From contig UQZS01000013.1 of the NCBI GenBank assembly GCA_900545625.1, forward strand, positions 1 to 36,796: a DNA stretch of 36,796 nucleotides. Direction: 5' to 3'. The DNA comes from an uncultured Oscillospiraceae bacterium. Its GTDB lineage: Bacteria; Bacillota; Clostridia; Oscillospirales; Acutalibacteraceae. Shown here piece after piece: positions 27,516 through 36,796 of this stretch. Under the pieces are notes generated by a model. That model saw nothing but the letters and a program-made list of their open reading frames with translations. It was not told the DNA's origin and did not search any database. Positions within the stretch are counted from its first letter, which is position 1. Every line of letters starts with the position of its first letter. A program made the translations under genes and the position numbers.

Positions 27516-29834
27516 TTAATCGCGGTATTCTTCCATGATGAAGGCTTCGAGCACGTCGCCCTCTTTGATGTCGTTAAACTTTTCAAGCCCCACGCCGCAT
27601 TCATAGCCCTGTGCGACCTCTTTGACATCGTCTTTAAAGCGCTTAAGCGACGCGATCGCATCCTCGGTAATGACGACGCCGTCGCGCACGACACGGATCT
27701 GCGCGTTTCGGGTGATCTTGCCGTCGAGCACATAGGAGCCTGCGATCGTACCCGCGGAGGAAAGTTTGAACACATTGCGCACCTCGGCGCGGCCGAGCTG
27801 CACCTCGCGGTATTTCGGCGCAAGCATGCCCTTGATGGCGGCCTCGATCTCCTCAATGCAGTCATAAATGACACGGTACATGCGCATATCAATGCCGTCG
27901 CGTTCGGCAAGCTGCGTTGCCACCGGATCAGGGCGCACATTGAACCCGACGATGATGGCGTTCGAAGCGTTGGCGAGCATCACATCGGATTCGCTGACCG
28001 CACCGACGCCGCCGTGGATAACCTTGACATGCACCTCGTCGTTCGACAGCTTTTCGAGGCTTTGGCGAACCGCCTCCACAGAGCCCTGCACATCCGCCTT
28101 GACGATGATGTCGAGTTCCTTGACTTCACCCTCGTTGATAGAAGCAAACAGGTTGTCGAGCGTGACTTTGTGGAACTGCTTGAATTCCTCTTCCTTGGCG
28201 TCGTGCTTTCTCTGCTCCACAAGCTCGCGCGCAAGTCTTTCATCGGAAACCGCGTCAAAGGCGTCGCCTGCCTGCGGGACATCCACAAGGCCGGTGATCT
28301 CCACAGGAACAGAGGGTCCCGCCGTTTCCACACGCTGCCCGCGGTCGTTGGTCATGACGCGCACACGGCCGACCGCCATGCCTGCGACGATGGTATCGCC
28401 CGCTTTGAGCGTACCGTTCTGCACAAGCAGCGTTGCCACGGGGCCGCGGCCCTTGTCGAGCCGCGCCTCAATGACTACGCCCTTGCCGGGGCGGTTCGGG
28501 TTGGCCTTGAGTTCTTTCATCTCCGCCACAAGCAGGATGGATTCAAGCAGCTTGTCAATGTTCATGCCCGTTTTTGCCGAAACCGGCACGCAGATCACGT
28601 CGCCGCCCCATTCTTCGGGGATAAGCTCGTATTCGGTGAGCTGCTGCATGATTTTTTCGGTCGAAGCGCCGGGCTTATCCATTTTGTTGATCGCAACAAT
28701 GATGCTGACGTCCGCGGCTTTTGCGTGGTTGATGGCCTCTATGGTCTGCGGCATGATGCCGTCATCCGCCGCGACCACCAGCACGGCGATGTCCGTCGCC
28801 TGTGCGCCGCGTGCACGCATGGCGGTGAACGCCGCGTGGCCGGGGGTGTCGAGGAAGGTGATTTTCTGCCCGCCCACATCAACGCGGTATGCGCCGATGT
28901 GCTGCGTGATGCCGCCCGCTTCGGTCTCGGTGACCGCAGTATGGCGGATCGTATCAAGCAGGGAGGTCTTGCCGTGGTCGACGTGGCCCATGACCACCAC
29001 GACCGGATCGCGCGGAAGCAGGTCTTCTTCGGCGTCCTCGGTATCGTCAATGATGCGTTCCTCGATCGTCACAACGACCTCTTTTTCGACCTTTGCGCCA
29101 AGCTCGGATGCAACGATCGCCGCCGTCTCATAGTCAATGACCTCGTTGACGGTCGCCATCTGCCCCAAAGAGAACAGCTTTTTGATGACCTCCGCCGCCG
29201 TCATTTTCAGGCGGGAGGCAAGCTCGCCGACGGTGATCTCGTCGGGGATCGTGACCTTGATGGGCTTCTTCGCGCGCTCGGCGGCGATACGCGCCATGCG
29301 CTCCTTTTCGGTCTCGCGCTTGCGTGAACGCATGCCCTGACGGCGGTACTGCTGCGACTTCTGCTTGAGCTTTTGCTTGTGTACGACATTATCGCCGTTG
29401 TTGCGGTTGTTGACAGGCGCGATATTCTCATAGCGCTCGTTGTATTTGTCCAGCTCAACGTTGCCCGCACGCGTATCCACGTGGCGCACCTCGCCTTTGG
29501 TGCGGGATTGCATGGGTTTCGCGGGATCCTTTGCTTTTTTCGCGGGTGCAGGTGCAGTATCCGCCTTTTTGTCCGCCGCAGCCGCCGGCTTCTCGGCGGC
29601 GGGAGCTTTTTCTTTTTTCGGCGCGGAAGTACGCTGCATGGCAAAATAGCTGTCCAGAGATTCCACCGCGTTTTCAGCGGTCAGCACATCGAACAGCACA
29701 TCCAATTCTTTTTCTTCAAGCGCCGTCTGGGATTTCTTTTCGCCGGGGAAATATTTGCCCAGCAGATCCGCCAGCTTTTTGCTGGGGACATTGAAATCCT
29801 TTGCGGCTTCGTGGAGTTTATATTTTTTCGTCAT
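27516..29834 (-). CDS. infB: Translation initiation factor IF-2
   Basis: This GTPase brings initiator tRNA to the ribosome. The 772 residues comprise an N-terminal IF2N helix region (1-55, [23 protein letters not shown]), a low-complexity Ala/Lys/Pro stretch (about 65-125), a second IF2N module (about 185-240), and the G domain with [18 protein letters not shown] and a SAK-type motif. The C-terminal domains with the fMet-tRNA-binding barrel follow. The start is ATG 29834. The frame stays open to 30089, but that part overlaps the L7Ae-like gene in another frame and has no conserved sequence. It starts 4 bases after that gene. Confidence 0.96.
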
Positions 29835-29838
29835 CCTG

Positions 29839-30156
29839 TCATTCCCTCCCGATGTGGTCTTGTATGCGCGCGGCAAAACCGGCATCGTTGACGGTGAGCA
29901 CCGCCGTAGGTTTTGCGCCGATCGTTTTGCCGAGCTCCTGCATGGTAAAAGCACCGCGTACCGTCGCGGCATTCGGGGAAAAGCGGGCAGCGGCGCGTTC
30001 CATTTCCGTCTGCAGCCGCTCTGACGCGTCCGATGCGAGCAGGCAAAGGCTCGCAGACCCGTTTTGAATTGCGCCGAGCGCCGCGTCATGTCCGGCGCTC
30101 AAAAGCCCTGCGCGGCGGGCGATCCCCAGCAGCCCGCCTGCTTTGTTATCCGTCAC
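29839..30156 (-). CDS. L7Ae-family ribosomal protein-like (YlxQ)
   Basis: This 105-residue protein of the L7Ae/L30e/YlxQ family, presumably binding kink-turn RNA, has the start [21 protein letters not shown] and the central [12 protein letters not shown] strand. The start is GTG 30156, behind GGAGGAGG and overlapping the ylxR stop by 11 bases; the longer in-frame ATG at 30204 lies within ylxR. Its place between ylxR and infB is the standard one. The exact role in Bacillota is not settled. Confidence 0.88.
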
Positions 30157-30415
30157 GCTGCAGCGCCTCCTCCAATTCGGCGTACACGGCGTCGGGGACG
30201 GCACAGCCGAACACGCGTTCGAGCCGCTTCGCTTTTTTCGCTTTCAAAAGGCAGCCGACGTCGGGGCAGATATAGGCGCCCCTTCCGGGCATTTTCCCGG
30301 TCGTGTCGAGCGAGATGACGCCCTCTTTCGAACGCACCACACGCACAAGCTCACGCTTCGGCTTCTGCGTACCGCAGCCCGTGCACAGACGCATCGGTAT
30401 GTTTTTGGTCTTCAC
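30146..30415 (-). CDS. ylxR: YlxR-family nucleic-acid-binding protein (DUF448)
   Basis: This 89-residue basic protein has the family motifs PMRLCTGCGTQKPKREL and GRGAYICPDVGCL. The cysteines (CTGC and CPDVGC) are arranged as a possible metal site. Relatives are linked to RNA or DNA binding and transcription control. The start is GTG 30415, with GGGAG upstream. It follows nusA by 39 bases. Confidence 0.92.
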   Translation of the reverse strand: MKTKNIPMRLCTGCGTQKPKRELVRVVRSKEGVISLDTTGKMPGRGAYICPDVGCLLKAKKAKRLERVFGCAVPDAVYAELEEALQRDG

Positions 30416-30454
30416 GCTGTCAGCTCCCTTGTTGCCTGTAAATCCTTTTGGGTC

Positions 30455-31504
30455 TTAGCCCTCGTAAAAGCCGCTTTCGGGCTTGATATCGATCTTCCAG
30501 CCGGTAAGGCGCGCCGCAAGGCGGGCGTTCTGGCCCTTATTGCCGATAGCAAGCGAAAGCTGGTTATCGGGCACGGTCGCCTGGCAGGAACGCGCTTCGG
30601 CGTCCACGATCTCGACGCCCAGCACCTTTGCGGGTGCAAGCGCCGCGGCGACGAATTGCTGCGGATCCTCGCTGTATACGACGATATCGATCTTCTCGCC
30701 GCCGAGCTCCTCGACGATCTTATTCACACGCGCGCCGCGCGGGCCGATGCACGCGCCGACGGCGTCCACGTTTTCATCCTTGCTGTGCACGGCGATCTTC
30801 GTGCGCGCGCCCGCTTCGCGCGAGACGGCCTCGATCGTCACAGTGCCGTCGTAAATTTCGGGCACCTCCGTTTCAAACAGCCGCTTGACAAGACCCGGAT
30901 GCGTGCGGGAGATCATAGCCTTCGGGCCCTTTTCGGTCTCGCGGACATCCACGATAAACACCTTGGTAAGGCTCCCCTCGGTGAAGGTCTCGCCGGGGAC
31001 CTGCTCGCCTTTCGGGAGGATCGCCTCCGCCTTGCCGATCTCAAGCGTCACGTTGCCCGTTACGGGGTCGATGCGCTGCACCTTGGCGGTGACCAGCTCC
31101 TGCTGCTTGGACTGGAACTCCATCATGATCTGCCCGCGCTCCGCGTCGCGGATGCCCTGGCGGATAACGTGCTTCGCGGTCTGTGCCGCGATCCTGCCGA
31201 AGTCCTTGGCTTCGAGCGCGATTTGGATCTCGTCGCCCACCGCCGCGTCGGATTTGAACTGCTGTGCTTCCTCAACGGTCATTTCGCAGTCGGGATCTTC
31301 CACCGTTTCCACGACCGTCTTGTGGAGAAACACGTTCATGATGCTATTCTCTGGATCGATCTCGCAGGAGATGACGTCCTTGCCGTTGTAGTCCTTTTTG
31401 ACCGCGACCAAAATTGCCGCCTTGATCTTTTCATACAGGTATTCGGCGGGGATGCCCTTTTCCTTTTCCAGCGCCTTGACCGCCTCGAAAAACTCCTTGT
31501 TCAT
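30455..31504 (-). CDS. nusA: Transcription termination/antitermination factor NusA
   Basis: This RNA-polymerase-binding factor affects pausing, termination and antitermination. The 349 residues are normal for Bacillota, which lack the C-terminal acidic repeats. The N-terminal polymerase-binding domain (about 1-125) is followed by an S1 domain (about 135-200) and two KH domains (about 205-345, with GACIGPRGARVNKIVEEL and LAIGNKGQNARLAARLTGWKIDI). I choose ATG 31504; GTG 31507 is directly before it, and both lie behind GGAGG. It starts 3 bases after rimP. Confidence 0.96.
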   Translation of the reverse strand: MNKEFFEAVKALEKEKGIPAEYLYEKIKAAILVAVKKDYNGKDVISCEIDPENSIMNVFLHKTVVETVEDPDCEMTVEEAQQFKSDAAVGDEIQIALEAKDFGRIAAQTAKHVIRQGIRDAERGQIMMEFQSKQQELVTAKVQRIDPVTGNVTLEIGKAEAILPKGEQVPGETFTEGSLTKVFIVDVRETEKGPKAMISRTHPGLVKRLFETEVPEIYDGTVTIEAVSREAGARTKIAVHSKDENVDAVGACIGPRGARVNKIVEELGGEKIDIVVYSEDPQQFVAAALAPAKVLGVEIVDAEARSCQATVPDNQLSLAIGNKGQNARLAARLTGWKIDIKPESGFYEG

Positions 31505-31507
31505 CAC

Positions 31508-31987
31508 TTAAAAACCTCCAAAATCATCGAGCTTTATCCACGATGCTTCTTTTTTGTCAAATGCGCGCGTCGCGCCGTCGTCACACCGGACGGTCACTGT
31601 GCCGTCCGAAAAGTCTTCCAGAACGCCCCTGTATTCGCGTCTGCCGTCTACGGCGCGGATGAACCGCACCATAACGTTTTCGCCCAAATACCGTTTAAAA
31701 TGGAAGTCGCGCGTCAATTCACGTTCGATCCCCGGAGACTGCACCTGCAGGCTGTAGCTGCGGTCGATGGGATCGGCTTCGTCCAGCGGCGTATCGAGCG
31801 CCTGGCTCATCGCCACGCAGTCCTCAATAGAGACAGGCTCATTTTCCTTGTCAATAATAATGCGCAAATACCACTCGGTGCCCTCTTTTAAAAAGCGCAC
31901 GTCCCAAAGCAGCAGACCGAGCGATTGTGCGAGCGGTTCGGCGATTTCCCAGACCACCGCCGCCGTATTCTGCTTTTTTTCTGCCAT
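31508..31987 (-). CDS. rimP: Ribosome maturation factor RimP
   Basis: This 159-residue 30S maturation factor has an N-terminal alpha/beta domain (LGLLLWDVRFLKEG, LRIIIDKE, VSIEDC) and a C-terminal SH3-like barrel (from about 90, with VQSPGIERELTRDFHFKRYLG). The start is ATG 31987, where conservation begins; the frame continues to 32080 without family sequence. The nearest good ribosome site (AAAGGAG, 32023-32029) is about 35 bases away, with a perfect hairpin in between. It is the first gene of the operon running to ribF. Confidence 0.9.
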   Translation of the reverse strand: MAEKKQNTAAVVWEIAEPLAQSLGLLLWDVRFLKEGTEWYLRIIIDKENEPVSIEDCVAMSQALDTPLDEADPIDRSYSLQVQSPGIERELTRDFHFKRYLGENVMVRFIRAVDGRREYRGVLEDFSDGTVTVRCDDGATRAFDKKEASWIKLDDFGGF

Positions 31988-31999
31988 ATTGGTTTGCGG

Positions 32000-32078
32000 C
32001 GCGCCGAGTTGTCGGCGCGGCACTCCTTTCTGCCGCGAAGTCCGCACAAAACGAGGAGAGCGGGTCGCCCCACTCTCC
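32000..32078 (-). promoter_or_regulatory. Structured leader of the rimP-nusA operon
   Basis: Read on the minus strand, the first hairpin pairs 32069-32078 with 32055-32064 (10 bp, one wobble) around a GCGA loop (GNRA type) and is followed by TCGTTTTG. The second, a perfect 8-bp stem (32012-32019 with 32000-32007, loop CAAC), lies between AAAGGAG and the rimP start. The first could be a weak attenuator. The second could bring a distant ribosome site nearer to the start or modulate it. The structures are seen; the functions are inferred. Confidence 0.5.
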
Positions 32079-32105
32079 AATCGCAGCCTGTATTCTTACG
32101 CTGCA

Positions 32106-32502: not shown

Positions 32503-33225
32503 TTAATCCATATATACGTCCACAACGTTTTCGTCCGCCTGCAGGGTAGAAACGATGATCTTCAGCGCGTTGTCCGTTTTCGGGAAAATAAGCGCCTTGA
32601 TGGTGGCGGTATCCTTTTTCTTGCGGAATTTCGAGTCATTGTCGTAAAGGATCTCCATCGAGTGCACCACCGTGCCCGTGCGCTTGATGAGCCCCGAGAT
32701 CTTCGGCACCTGCTCGGCGAGATCCTTGACCTCGATATACAGCGCCTTGCCCGCTTTGCCGCGGACGATGACCTTTTTGAGCGAATTGAGCGTCATATAG
32801 ATCACAAAGGTCGCAACGATCGCACCCGTTACAAAGCCTGCGCCGACGGCGATACCGATGCACGAGACCGCCCACAGGCTTGCCGCCGTGGTAAGGCCTT
32901 TGACGGAAAAGCCCTCACGCAAGATCGTGCCAGCGCCCAAAAAGCCGATACCGCTTACGACCTGCGCCGCCATGCGGGTGATGTCCACATTCGCCTGCCC
33001 CTCATAGGTCCTGGATATGTATACGGAGGTCAGCATGATAAGCGTTGAGCCGACCGCCACGAGGATGTGCGTACGGAAGCCCGCGGGGCGGTGCGAATGC
33101 TCGCGTTCAAAGCCGATGATCCCGCTGAGCAGCACGCTTAAAGCCAGCTTCCACGCCGCGTCGATCACAAAGCGGAACTCCTGGTTGTTCCAAAGCCACA
33201 GTGCGGCTTCCTTGAGCCATTCCAT
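32503..33225 (-). CDS. MgtC/SapB-family membrane protein
   Basis: This 240-residue inner-membrane protein has the MgtC domain of about five helices (30-150) with the family motifs GFEREHSHRPAGFRTH and VVSGIGFLGAGTILREG. A C-terminal cytoplasmic ACT-like domain (about 160-240) follows. MgtC proteins in pathogens affect survival at low magnesium and inhibit the F-type ATPase; the role in commensal Clostridia is not known. ATG 33225 has GGAGG upstream. It follows the P-type ATPase-like gene by 13 bases, so the two are cotranscribed. Confidence 0.92.
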   Translation of the reverse strand: MEWLKEAALWLWNNQEFRFVIDAAWKLALSVLLSGIIGFEREHSHRPAGFRTHILVAVGSTLIMLTSVYISRTYEGQANVDITRMAAQVVSGIGFLGAGTILREGFSVKGLTTAASLWAVSCIGIAVGAGFVTGAIVATFVIYMTLNSLKKVIVRGKAGKALYIEVKDLAEQVPKISGLIKRTGTVVHSMEILYDNDSKFRKKKDTATIKALIFPKTDNALKIIVSTLQADENVVDVYMD

Positions 33226-33238
33226 TCGTGCGCCTCCT

Positions 33239-36238
33239 TTACACTTTTTTGAATTTCGGGATGAGCAGCACGACCACTGCCCAGAAAAGCTCGAAAATCA
33301 AGATCTCGGGGATTCCTGCCTGCCCGAGATTCGAGAAAAAGCTGAGCACCGCCATGAGCAATACGCTAAGCCCCACACCGATATACAATAAAACCTGTGA
33401 AAGCCTGTATTTTTCTTCCAGCACGAACGCTGCCAGAAACGCGCGCAGGGCGGCAGCGGTCGAACCGCTGTGCAGGATCGCACAGGGCTCCGGGCGCGGG
33501 GGTTCCTCGCAAAGCTCGCGGAACATGTCGCCCGCGACGGGGTTGATGATCTTAACAAGGTTGTGCGGCAGGTCAAAGTACTGCTCCACAAGGGTCTCGG
33601 TAATATTCGGGTCAGAGGTGCGAAGCAAAATCGTCACACCGTATTTTTCAAGCCGCTGCAAATAGACGGAAATTTGTTTATCGGACGCATATTCCACCAC
33701 GAACAGCGCGGCGGTCTTGCCCTCCACCGCCAGATACAGCACCTCACAGCCGTCTTTTTTGAAACGCTGCTCTTCCTCACGCGTGGGGGCGTCCACATTG
33801 TGCTTCAAAAGCAGATCGCGGCTGCCCACGAGCACCCGCTGGTTATAGATCCAGCCCGAACAGCCCAGCCGCTCCTCATAGGCAAGAGATTCCACGGGCG
33901 GCAGGATCTCGCGCTTTGAAAGGATCACTGCGTCGAACACGTCGGACAGCGTCCCACCCGAGCGGATGGTCATCGCCGCCGTATATAAGAGCGCCTCGTC
34001 CACACGCATTTTGTGATAGGTCTTCATGCCGCAAAGCCGGCATCGGCAGCCGTCAAACAGCTCGGCAGCGTCGAGCACCACGGCGTTCGCCGTGACCGCA
34101 TCAAAGGCGGCATCATAGCTGCTCAACAGCGAGTTCTGCGCGCGCAGGCGGCGGTTGACACCGCCAAGCGCTGCGGCAGAGCCGGGCACGGCGGCAACAG
34201 GCAGCCCCACTAACACCGTGGCGACAATGGCGGAAATGCCCGCGAACACGTCGTTGCGCACAAAGCTCGTGACCGCGCCGATGAGGAAGGCGGCGATGAG
34301 CACCGCGGGCAGCGCGTTTGCGTACACATCAAAATCCCGGTTGTTGGTTTTGGAAACGCGCACGAAATCCGACGGGAACGCGATCTTTTTGGAATAGCGA
34401 ACGTCCGGATCACCGAGCAGCAGCCCGCGCCCGATCTCAAACGCCGTTTCGGGCGATTCAATGCGCGCGACACTCGAAAAACGGCTGCTGCGTTCGGCGA
34501 CCAGCATAAAGTCCTGAATGTCCTCTTTTAAGCCGCGCCGTCTGCCCGCATAATATAAGGTCAACAGCAAAAACGCCGGTGCAGAATACAGAGGGATCTC
34601 CGTAAGCCGCTCCGGGTACGCCAGCGAAACGGCAGCCTGCACAAGCGCGAACAGCAGCGCGACTAAAAGCCCTGTTTCCGCTGTGGTGCGGCGATGCACG
34701 ATCCCCGAAAAGGCAATTTTCATCTGCGGCAGGCAAATCAGGAATCCGCCGAGCAGCAAAACCAGATGTAAAGCGCTGTATACGGCGGGATCGCCGCCGA
34801 GCAGTGTGAAATCCCCCGTAAAGCGCACGAGCAGCGCGGCAGCGGCGGCAGCGGCCAAAAAGATGAGGCTCAACCACATGCGCACGGTAAAGCCGCGCTT
34901 TTCGGCGGTAAAAATATCAAAGACTGCCTGTGCATCCTTTGGCCCGTAAAATTCACGCAGCACGCGTATCGGCGCCCTTTCCGGCTTTGGTGCACGGCGT
35001 CTGCGGCGGCGCGGGGCTTCCTCTTCCTCTTCAAAGGGTTCGTCGGTGTCGGCATCCGCCTGTGTTTCGGGCAGCTCCGGCACGGCGCGGGTGCGCGCTT
35101 CCGCTTCGTCCGGCTGCATTTCGTCAACTTCGGCGTCCGGGCGCGTGCTTTCGGCATCCTCTGCGGTCGAAAGCCCCGGGAACAGGCGAAAATCCTTCGC
35201 CCGTTCGCGTCGGCGGCGGCGAAGCGACGCTTCGGCAATCTCCTCGTCGATCTGCTCCACAGGCGCCTCATGGGTATCATAGCCGTCGAGCATCATCTGA
35301 TTCTCCAACGGCGCTTCTTTATCTTCAGCTGCGAACGCGTTTAAATCCCCTGCCTGCCGTTCGGGATGTGCTTTCTGATCCTTGAGCACATCCTCCGGGG
35401 TAACGAGCGTCGGGATCGCCTGCAGGTCGCCCTCGGCCGCCTCTTCCGCTTTGCGCACGATCACGCCCGGCTTTTCGATCGTTTTCGGCGGCATCTGCTC
35501 CAAGAGGCGCTTATGCTCCTGCGTTTTTTCCAGTTTTTGCTGCGGGCGGTTCAAAAAGCGGTCGCGCTTTTCATCCGTCTCCATGACGCGCCGTTTGGGT
35601 ACGACGGCGTCGAATTCGCCCGTTGTGGTGCGCAAAACGCGGTTGCCGATCTGGTGTTCGATCCCGCTGCGGTGCACCGCGTGCGACTCCACCTCGTTGA
35701 ACACACGGGTCTTTTCAATGGAGATCTGCCCGGGCAGATCCTCCGGCAAAGGCTTTGCTTCTTCTTGGTTCGGTGCCTCCGCCTGCGGGGTCGCGCCCGT
35801 AAGCAGCGGCTCGATCTCACCGTCCGCCGCCTGCGACGGGACTTCAGGCGACAGTTCGTCTGCGGACTCCATCCGTGCCGCACGACGCGCAGCCTCTTTA
35901 AGCGACACACCCTTTTTCGGCGGCTCACGCTTTTCGGGCTCCGGCGCAGGCGTTTCTTTTCGTGCGGCAGTTTCGGGGGCTGCCGCAGGCGCTTCGATTG
36001 GTTTTTCCGACTGTACTTCGGGCTTTGCACCCGTCGCAGGATCTTGCGGCATGTCGGACAAAACGGGGCGCGGCGAAGCCTCCCCGCCGTTTTTTGCGGC
36101 GGGCTTTTCTTCGTCGGAAAGCAGCGCGTCCACTTCGGAAAGCGACCAGAGCCTGCTCCCTTTTTCCCCTTGCAGGTGCTTGACGTCGTCTAAAATCTTA
36201 TCTACCGCAAGCCCCGACAGAATGTCCTTTTGCGACAT
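33239..36238 (-). CDS. P1B-ATPase-like membrane protein, probable pseudoenzyme, with long disordered N-terminus
   Basis: This is a 999-residue protein. Residues 1-450 are charged, rich in Glu, Ala, Pro and Arg and probably disordered, with basic clusters near 340-347 and 410-416. Eight helices follow in 4+2+2 order (about 453-473, 486-505, 520-541, 547-564; 639-660, 664-689; 945-968, 975-995), as in P1B metal ATPases. The sixth has GLPVAAVPG where CPC-type metal motifs sit. The domain after it keeps Asp723 but reads LDAAELF instead of DKTGT. VLVGSRDLLLKHNVD resembles the nucleotide-binding domain, and TGDN appears as TSDPN. No TGES or GDGxND is seen, so transport by the normal cycle is unlikely; a sensor or scaffold role is possible. 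It starts 3 bases after rlmB and is followed by mgtC. Confidence 0.78.
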   Translation of the reverse strand: MSQKDILSGLAVDKILDDVKHLQGEKGSRLWSLSEVDALLSDEEKPAAKNGGEASPRPVLSDMPQDPATGAKPEVQSEKPIEAPAAAPETAARKETPAPEPEKREPPKKGVSLKEAARRAARMESADELSPEVPSQAADGEIEPLLTGATPQAEAPNQEEAKPLPEDLPGQISIEKTRVFNEVESHAVHRSGIEHQIGNRVLRTTTGEFDAVVPKRRVMETDEKRDRFLNRPQQKLEKTQEHKRLLEQMPPKTIEKPGVIVRKAEEAAEGDLQAIPTLVTPEDVLKDQKAHPERQAGDLNAFAAEDKEAPLENQMMLDGYDTHEAPVEQIDEEIAEASLRRRRRERAKDFRLFPGLSTAEDAESTRPDAEVDEMQPDEAEARTRAVPELPETQADADTDEPFEEEEEAPRRRRRRAPKPERAPIRVLREFYGPKDAQAVFDIFTAEKRGFTVRMWLSLIFLAAAAAAALLVRFTGDFTLLGGDPAVYSALHLVLLLGGFLICLPQMKIAFSGIVHRRTTAETGLLVALLFALVQAAVSLAYPERLTEIPLYSAPAFLLLTLYYAGRRRGLKEDIQDFMLVAERSSRFSSVARIESPETAFEIGRGLLLGDPDVRYSKKIAFPSDFVRVSKTNNRDFDVYANALPAVLIAAFLIGAVTSFVRNDVFAGISAIVATVLVGLPVAAVPGSAAALGGVNRRLRAQNSLLSSYDAAFDAVTANAVVLDAAELFDGCRCRLCGMKTYHKMRVDEALLYTAAMTIRSGGTLSDVFDAVILSKREILPPVESLAYEERLGCSGWIYNQRVLVGSRDLLLKHNVDAPTREEEQRFKKDGCEVLYLAVEGKTAALFVVEYASDKQISVYLQRLEKYGVTILLRTSDPNITETLVEQYFDLPHNLVKIINPVAGDMFRELCEEPPRPEPCAILHSGSTAAALRAFLAAFVLEEKYRLSQVLLYIGVGLSVLLMAVLSFFSNLGQAGIPEILIFELFWAVVVLLIPKFKKV

Positions 36239-36241
36239 GCC

Positions 36242-36796
36242 TTACACCTCAGCCTCCAAAGATCTGTGTGAAGAGATTTCATACAGCAAAATGCCCGCCG
36301 CCACCGAAGCGTTGAGCGAATTGATCTTCCCTTTCATGGGCAGGGACACGATAAAATCGCATTTTTCCCGCACGAGCCGCCCAAGGCCCTTGCCCTCCGC
36401 ACCGACAACCAGCGCGACGCCGCCGGAAAAATCCGTTTTTTTGTAATCCGTGCCGTCCATGTCCGCGCCGTAGACCCAGCAGCCGTGCGCCTTGAGTTCG
36501 TCGAGCGCCGCAGGCAGATTCGGCACACGCGCGACGGGGATATATTCGAGCGCACCCGCCGAGGTCTTAGCGACCGTCGCGGAAAGCTGTGCACTGCGGC
36601 GTTTGGGGATGACCACCCCGTGCGCGCCCGCCGCCTCCGCCGTGCGCAAAACCGCGCCGAGGTTGTGCGGATCCTCCAGCTCATCGCAGACGACCACAAA
36701 CGGCGGTTCGCCGCGCGCTTCGGCAACGGCGAGAATATCCGAAAGATTCGCGTAATCGTGCGCGGCGGTAAACGCCGCCACGCCCTGGTGCACCCC
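36242..36796 (-). CDS. rlmB: 23S rRNA 2'-O-ribose methyltransferase RlmB (SpoU/TrmH family), 5' end missing
   Basis: The 184 visible codons hold the SPOUT catalytic domain of an RNA 2'-O-methyltransferase that uses S-adenosylmethionine: motif 1 DELEDPHNLGAVLRTAEAAGA, motif 2 ALVVGAEGKGLGRLV and motif 3 SLPMKGKINSLNASVAAGILLYE, the knotted SAM site. The visible start VHQGVAAF is the linker after the N-terminal substrate-binding domain, so the true start lies outside the window. Which rRNA or tRNA position it modifies is inferred from RlmB/TrmH-type relatives. It ends 3 bases before the P-type ATPase-like gene and is probably in the same operon. Confidence 0.9.
   Translation of the reverse strand, partial: GVHQGVAAFTAAHDYANLSDILAVAEARGEPPFVVVCDELEDPHNLGAVLRTAEAAGAHGVVIPKRRSAQLSATVAKTSAGALEYIPVARVPNLPAALDELKAHGCWVYGADMDGTDYKKTDFSGGVALVVGAEGKGLGRLVREKCDFIVSLPMKGKINSLNASVAAGILLYEISSHRSLEAEV

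Follow-up and report, generated by a model that had tools for sequence, protein, structure and literature searches.

What is the role of a protein that resembles a copper-exporting ATPase in its predicted architecture, has none of the catalytic motifs of such a pump, and is encoded directly behind the gene of a ribosomal RNA (rRNA) methyltransferase? The question is raised by a stretch of 36,796 nucleotides from an uncultured Oscillospiraceae bacterium (contig UQZS01000013.1; hereafter, the window). Near its end, an open reading frame (ORF) begins with ATG and encodes 999 residues with no internal stop. An earlier note, made from the sequence alone, had recognized the fully open frame and proposed a conserved pseudo-ATPase related to P1B-type pumps. 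Our best overall explanation, which we regard as possible rather than probable, is that the protein is a dead CopA-like P1B relative that does not pump and forms a signal or tether link to RlmB, ribosome maturation, or translation.

Predicted fold and lost motifs

Kinship to copper pumps was seen in both sequence and predicted structure. CopA was the best-matching NCBIfam model (PRK10671, E 4e-12, 45.1 bits; the curated cut-off of 1316 bits was not reached), and LpCopA (PDB 3rfu) was matched by phmmer with E 1e-9. Therefore, the sequence resemblance to P1B pumps is more than chance would give, as had been supposed. The spacing of the key sites agreed as well. From the Pro of the CPC site to the Asp we counted 43 residues, the same number as in the five pumps measured, and from the Asp to the Thr of TGD 151 residues; for the latter distance, the three CopA-like pumps among the five have 149-151 and the other two P1B pumps 143. 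From TGD to the end of the protein there are 125 residues, compared to 162-163 in the three CopA-like pumps; thus, the part that bears GDGxND is shortened.

The AlphaFold model showed the expected long helices in a 4+2+2 arrangement, and the predicted models place P, N, and shortened A (actuator) domains on a P1B membrane bundle, so that the P and N domains called for by a P-type fold are present in the model. The actuator region had been put at about 75 residues, a figure that holds only if the helix ends are counted; 52 residues lie between the helices. The last two helices of the family are unlike those of pumps. A Pfam scan of the window protein found no metal-binding domain and returned a single weak coiled-coil match (E 0.12, under the cut-off). 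By its predicted architecture, the protein would belong to the P1B class of the P-type ATPase superfamily.

Across the order, the family has lost the motifs by which a pump is phosphorylated and dephosphorylated and by which it binds metal. The window protein contains VVLDAAELF (with Asp723), RTSDPNIT, VLVGSRDLLL, and Pro680 in the sixth helix. This agrees with the earlier note, in which DAAEL stood for DKTGT and TSDPN for TGDN, while TGES, CPC, and GDGxND were absent. We found that the loss was common to 68 relatives, the set that remained after removal of 11 duplicate loci: DKTGT, exact TGES, GDGxND, and CPC at the sixth-helix site were each present in 0/68. Look-alike strings (SGET in L030, GDGRIDD in L028) lie away from the aligned sites. 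Pro680 of the window protein has no flanking Cys, and a single Cys adjoins the Pro in three relatives (LPC in L009 and L025, CPA in L029). The His-Pro of the N domain was not found in the family rows inspected.

Among 24 columns counted over the 68 sequences, only G792, G805, and D876 were invariant, followed by W986 (64/68) and Pro680 (59/68). D876 belongs to the former TGD site, which reads TSD(PN) in the window protein, with the Gly lost. G792 is the second Gly of the N-domain GxG, the first being kept in 17/68. Asp723 had been described as kept; it is invariant in all 37 close relatives (the window protein and 36 from the best 120 of 167 matches), but across the order it was present in 45/68 and missing from 23/68. 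This count weakens the idea that Asp723 marks what is left of an active site in the family. The former phosphorylation loop now shows a new consensus, roughly D-A-x-D/E-L-F-P.

Distribution, selection, and the variable tail

A protein search with the window protein produced 167 relatives at E<=1e-3, well beyond one strain. None of the best 120 had a Pfam domain in its precomputed annotation; where a source name was given, in a few cases, it was 'hypothetical protein'. Searches with two divergent members gave 363 and 265 matches, of which the best 120 of each were considered. Among the relatives of L046, 21 of the best 120 of 265 had PF00702 (HAD) as a precomputed domain, consistent with P-domain ancestry; in our own Pfam scan, PF00702 was matched by one of 48 cores.

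A profile of the close relatives had matches at E<=0.001 in 252/394 whole genomes of the same order, which we take to be the Oscillospirales of GTDB; the weakest of these matches may be real pumps. With a broader profile of the core, 142/147 genomes of the order had a long match (best E-value <=1.8e-43, sample completeness at least 90%, matches in G082 and G085 partial). Most sampled members of the order thus appear to keep the gene. Among 393 genomes sampled across the class, the whole core was matched in 21/22 order members, compared to only about positions 197-529 of 571 among the matches listed for the other 371 genomes. The nine top matches outside the order were ordinary pumps with DKTGT, GDGIND or GDGVND, TGES, and CPC.

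In a tree of the P/N region, one branch (100/100) split 48 family members from 27 DKTGT proteins; the tree is unrooted, has long branches, leaves out 11 P2 rows, and does not fully follow the CopA and P1B2 labels, which are crude motif labels. Since the family forms one group, the simplest reading is that the motifs were lost once, at the base of the order, with mainly vertical inheritance thereafter. Probably, then, a dead P1B-type ATPase has been inherited mainly by descent within one order. Literature searches, with most subscription papers outside their coverage, had no paper on this bacterial family among the matches listed.

Purifying selection was strongest on the dead P/N domains. Against L001-L003, the ratio of nonsynonymous to synonymous substitution rates (dN/dS) was lowest in P/N (0.009-0.032), intermediate in the core (0.059-0.067), and highest in the tail (0.21-0.24). 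For L005 and L013, the other two of the five relatives compared, dS is high (0.90-1.69); here P/N gave 0.106-0.136, the core 0.18-0.22, and the tail 0.26-0.33. Therefore, the former catalytic region is the most constrained. A decaying gene is rejected by these ratios, well below 1, by the long open frames in relatives, and by order-wide conservation, and the view of a conserved pseudo-ATPase, also in line with the single tree group, was borne out.

The N-terminal tail had been described as a gained, disordered segment of 450 residues. It is about 430 residues long and mostly, but not entirely, low-confidence in the AlphaFold model. Among relatives, its length ranged from none (the 545-548-residue proteins L048-L051) to about 900 residues (L079). 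We therefore rejected the disordered tail as a defining feature of the family, and its reported gain did not survive as such. The tail varies in length and evolves faster (dN/dS 0.21-0.33), so the dead pump core is the constant and most constrained unit. One conserved motif of the tail, GQISIEKTRVFNEVE, was seen in the alignment of the 37 close relatives. An N-terminal FSLDDIL-like motif was found in 34/68 family proteins compared to 9/513 neighbouring ORFs, with a pattern derived from the same sequences, uncertain start codons, and a conservation count that used 54/68 rows.

The motif [DE][KR]T occurred 47 times in 46 tails compared to 28.8 expected (1/500 shuffles was as high), in a test from which two tails (L073, L079), 16 rows of the close clade, and the proteins without a tail were set aside. 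Docking of a kinase or FHA domain through these motifs remained a lead only: the pattern was one of 17 tried, related tails do not count as independent cases, and no kinase or FHA search was made. In L073, the predicted tail holds an expanded array of eleven near-identical repeats beginning VTEQPYQE[KR]TAP.

The pairing with rlmB and what the protein may do

A further feature of the family lies at the window edge and was not in the earlier note. The gene has a near-constant place directly behind rlmB, on the basis of which we propose an order-specific, RlmB-associated family. In the window, the rlmB stop and the ATG of the pseudo-ATPase gene are separated by 3 bases, and the rlmB product scored 219 bits against TIGR00186 (cut-off 160.15). 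The same gene was upstream on the same strand in 59/68 family loci, while the other nine hold less than 300 bp of upstream sequence. Two of the 59 loci are oddly spaced (-226 and 803), perhaps owing to the start codon chosen or to a frame that is split. Among 20 more loci, mostly from divergent families, rlmB was upstream in 18; in L155 the gene runs off the contig, and the last, G002, is an exception taken up below. In 11 additional genomes, the coordinates place both genes side by side on one strand. The partner is an ordinary RlmB family member, and 15 rlmB loci outside the order had no family gene in the available flanks.

The two genes are also absent together. Five order genomes were without the family protein, and four of them showed no RlmB in a search with a 249-residue query: their best E-values (7.4e-17, 4.2e-14, 6.7e-7, 4.5e-7) were at paralogue level, compared to 6.7e-58 to 8.5e-98 in other genomes. 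The fifth genome, G028, has an rlmB whose end lies 416 bases from the end of its sequence stretch.

Family f19 has another P-type relative directly upstream of rlmB (637-818 residues, two copies cut by contig ends). Eight f19 genomes were searched, and all seven loci that were read had this arrangement; in the eighth, G143, the match contains two stops and the locus was not read. Among four pump types tried, the copy in G076 was nearest P2-type pumps (BLAST, 25% over 346 residues, 1.7e-21). In the aligned proteins, DKTGT and GDGxND were absent from seven rows and TGES from the six rows that reach it. Three of the seven have only 21-24% identity to the first and likely belong to the same family.

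The near-constant place behind rlmB suggests a regulatory job. In the explanation that we prefer, the family protein would not pump, and its membrane bundle would be an anchor. The P/N domains could offer a surface for binding or conformational sensing, perhaps with what remains of a ligand pocket; the tail, variable as it is, may be a flexible tether with short docking motifs. Co-produced with RlmB, the protein would most likely relay a signal from the membrane or a metabolite to RlmB itself, to ribosome maturation, or to translation; alternatively, it might hold such factors at the membrane. The signalling or scaffolding job suggested earlier is plausible. A bolder version, which we think unlikely, is that an order-wide copper pump became a membrane controller and, with RlmB, a module linking envelope or metabolite state to 23S rRNA G2251 methylation, joined in one family by a second, separately killed P2-like pump.

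Several observations weigh against the link to RlmB. Adjacency suggests shared expression, not interaction, and no RNA-binding domain was found in the tail by Pfam and NCBIfam scans. The pairing is not absolute: in one real exception, G002, the gene stands behind obgE and rlmB is on another contig. The joint absence may count for less than four cases, with G064 and G134 in one genus and an assembly gap possible in G105. The search could also have missed an RlmB that has diverged strongly, and one deletion can remove two neighbours. Family genes in G023 (L157, 4164-6560) and G078 (contig C4) have one in-frame TGA, for which assembly error, recoding, and decay are all possible.

It is somewhat unlikely that the dead pump regulates ion or metal homeostasis, acting together with an active P-type ATPase or with the close-clade MgtC, with rlmB only supplying a promoter. 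P1B descent fits this role, as does the MgtC/SapB-like gene that follows it directly downstream in loci of the close clade. Possible partners also exist: nine order genomes had 35 PF00122 matches, at least two of them degenerate, among these the second dead pump and L108. However, the MgtC cluster is the next gene downstream in just 7/47 other loci compared (the greedy ORF choice missed the window's own MgtC gene and may have missed more), while rlmB is nearly constant; thus, MgtC as a general partner is not supported by the wider family. The CPx metal site is also gone from 68/68, and the family departs from pumps in its last two helices.

That the bundle serves as a passive channel, exchanger, or lipid scramblase without ATP hydrolysis seems improbable. 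The predicted bundle is kept, with Pro680 and W986 widely conserved, and the bundle of human TMEM94 holds lipid according to the accessible text of PMC12134183; yet the strongest constraint falls on the cytoplasmic P/N region, not on the membrane part.

A structural or housekeeping membrane protein, left behind rlmB as a frozen accident of operon history, is quite improbable. Gene order can persist by descent, and contact between the two products was not indicated by any computation. Nevertheless, the other flanking genes change between families while the rlmB pair stays, and both genes are absent together. Moreover, two kinds of dead pump, that of f19 included, are found at rlmB, so that a function shared with RlmB or ribosome maturation is favoured over accident.

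An active ATPase or HAD phosphatase working by a non-standard route, for which Asp723 in 37/37 of the close clade, D876 in 68/68, and the PF00702 matches speak, is very improbable, as Asp723 is missing from 23/68, the DKTGT Lys, GDGxND, TGES, and the N-domain His-Pro are gone, and about 38 residues after TGD are missing relative to CopA-like pumps.

To our knowledge, few pseudoenzymes with a P-type ATPase fold are known. CopA (a Cu(I)-exporting P1B-1 ATPase; PRK10671; PDB 3rfu, 4bbj) shares with the family the predicted core fold, the 4+2+2 helices, and the Pro-Asp-TGD spacing. Unlike CopA, the family has no phosphorylation, dephosphorylation, GDGxND, or CPx motifs, has shortened A and P domains, and has the variable tail and the rlmB pairing. 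Human TMEM94 (ERMA), the best-known P-type pseudoenzyme case that we found, has a P-type-like architecture and disputed pump activity, argued against in the accessible text of PMC12134183 and argued for in that of PMC13322241. It differs from the family in being human, with ten helices and SPCA as the nearest pump, and the accessible text mentions no rRNA methyltransferase (PMC12134183). The apicomplexan guanylyl cyclase with a P4-ATPase domain also sets a P-type domain in signalling, as far as the accessible text goes (PMC7858053, PMC6592433). Its domain, however, is P4 rather than P1B, is joined to the cyclase, and has an activity described there as essential (PMC7858053).

In the present family, dead catalytic domains are under the strongest constraint and are kept in nearly all sampled genomes of the order. 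The rlmB pairing makes a 'hypothetical protein' a testable link between membrane and rRNA modification, and for such motif-free P1B relatives annotation as metal pumps is unwarranted.

Coordinates and other neighbours

Table 1. Features of the window and loci of the second dead pump (pLDDT, predicted local distance difference test)
Feature	Position	Strand	Basis or remark
Pseudo-P1B-ATPase gene, 999 residues	33239..36238	(-)	open frame; CopA-like by NCBIfam and PDB sequence; fold model; homologues
N-terminal tail, residues 1-430	34949..36238	(-)	mostly low pLDDT (AlphaFold); length varies among relatives
Conserved tail motif GQISIEKTRVFNEVE, residues 170-184	35687..35731	(-)	alignment of 37 close relatives
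Predicted pump-fold core, residues 431-999	33242..34948	(-)	long helices 4+2+2
Dead P and N domains, residues 700-925	33464..34141	(-)	D723, G792, G805, D876
Shortened actuator region without TGES, residues 583-634	34337..34492	(-)	
rlmB, 23S rRNA (guanosine-2251-2'-O)-methyltransferase	36242..36796	(-)	TIGR00186; 5' end cut by window
MgtC/SapB-like membrane protein gene	32503..33225	(-)	NCBIfam PRK09977
Second dead pump, f19, L054	1563-4013		
Second dead pump, f19, L183	4022-6478		
Second dead pump, f19, L184	3-1916		
Second dead pump, f19, L185	2-1978		
Second dead pump, f19, L180	2040-4250		
Second dead pump, f19, L182	3768-5978		
Second dead pump, f19, L181	3751-5961		

The MgtC/SapB-like gene begins 13 bases downstream of the pseudo-ATPase gene and matched PRK09977 with E 3.5e-32, below the cut-off. 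In the mgtCB operon of Salmonella, MgtC stands beside an active P3-type pump. The window does not match such an operon: the neighbour is MgtC/SapB-like, but the window protein is a dead P1B relative.

A perhaps further dead P-type ATPase is L108 (G017, contig C1), an 811-residue frame that matched PF00122 with E 7e-25 and has no DKTGT, TGES, or GDG. In the exceptional G002 locus (L146, 3024-6671), an L21-like gene, identified by eye, precedes obgE, again a ribosome-related place. Downstream of the MgtC-like gene in the window, a RimP-like ORF (by eye), NusA, and IF-2 lie on the same strand at 27516-32080. An EF-G-like gene is next or next-but-one downstream in L042, L044, L047, L053, L059, L067, L071, and L073, where its identity was read by eye in one of the eight, with no family search.
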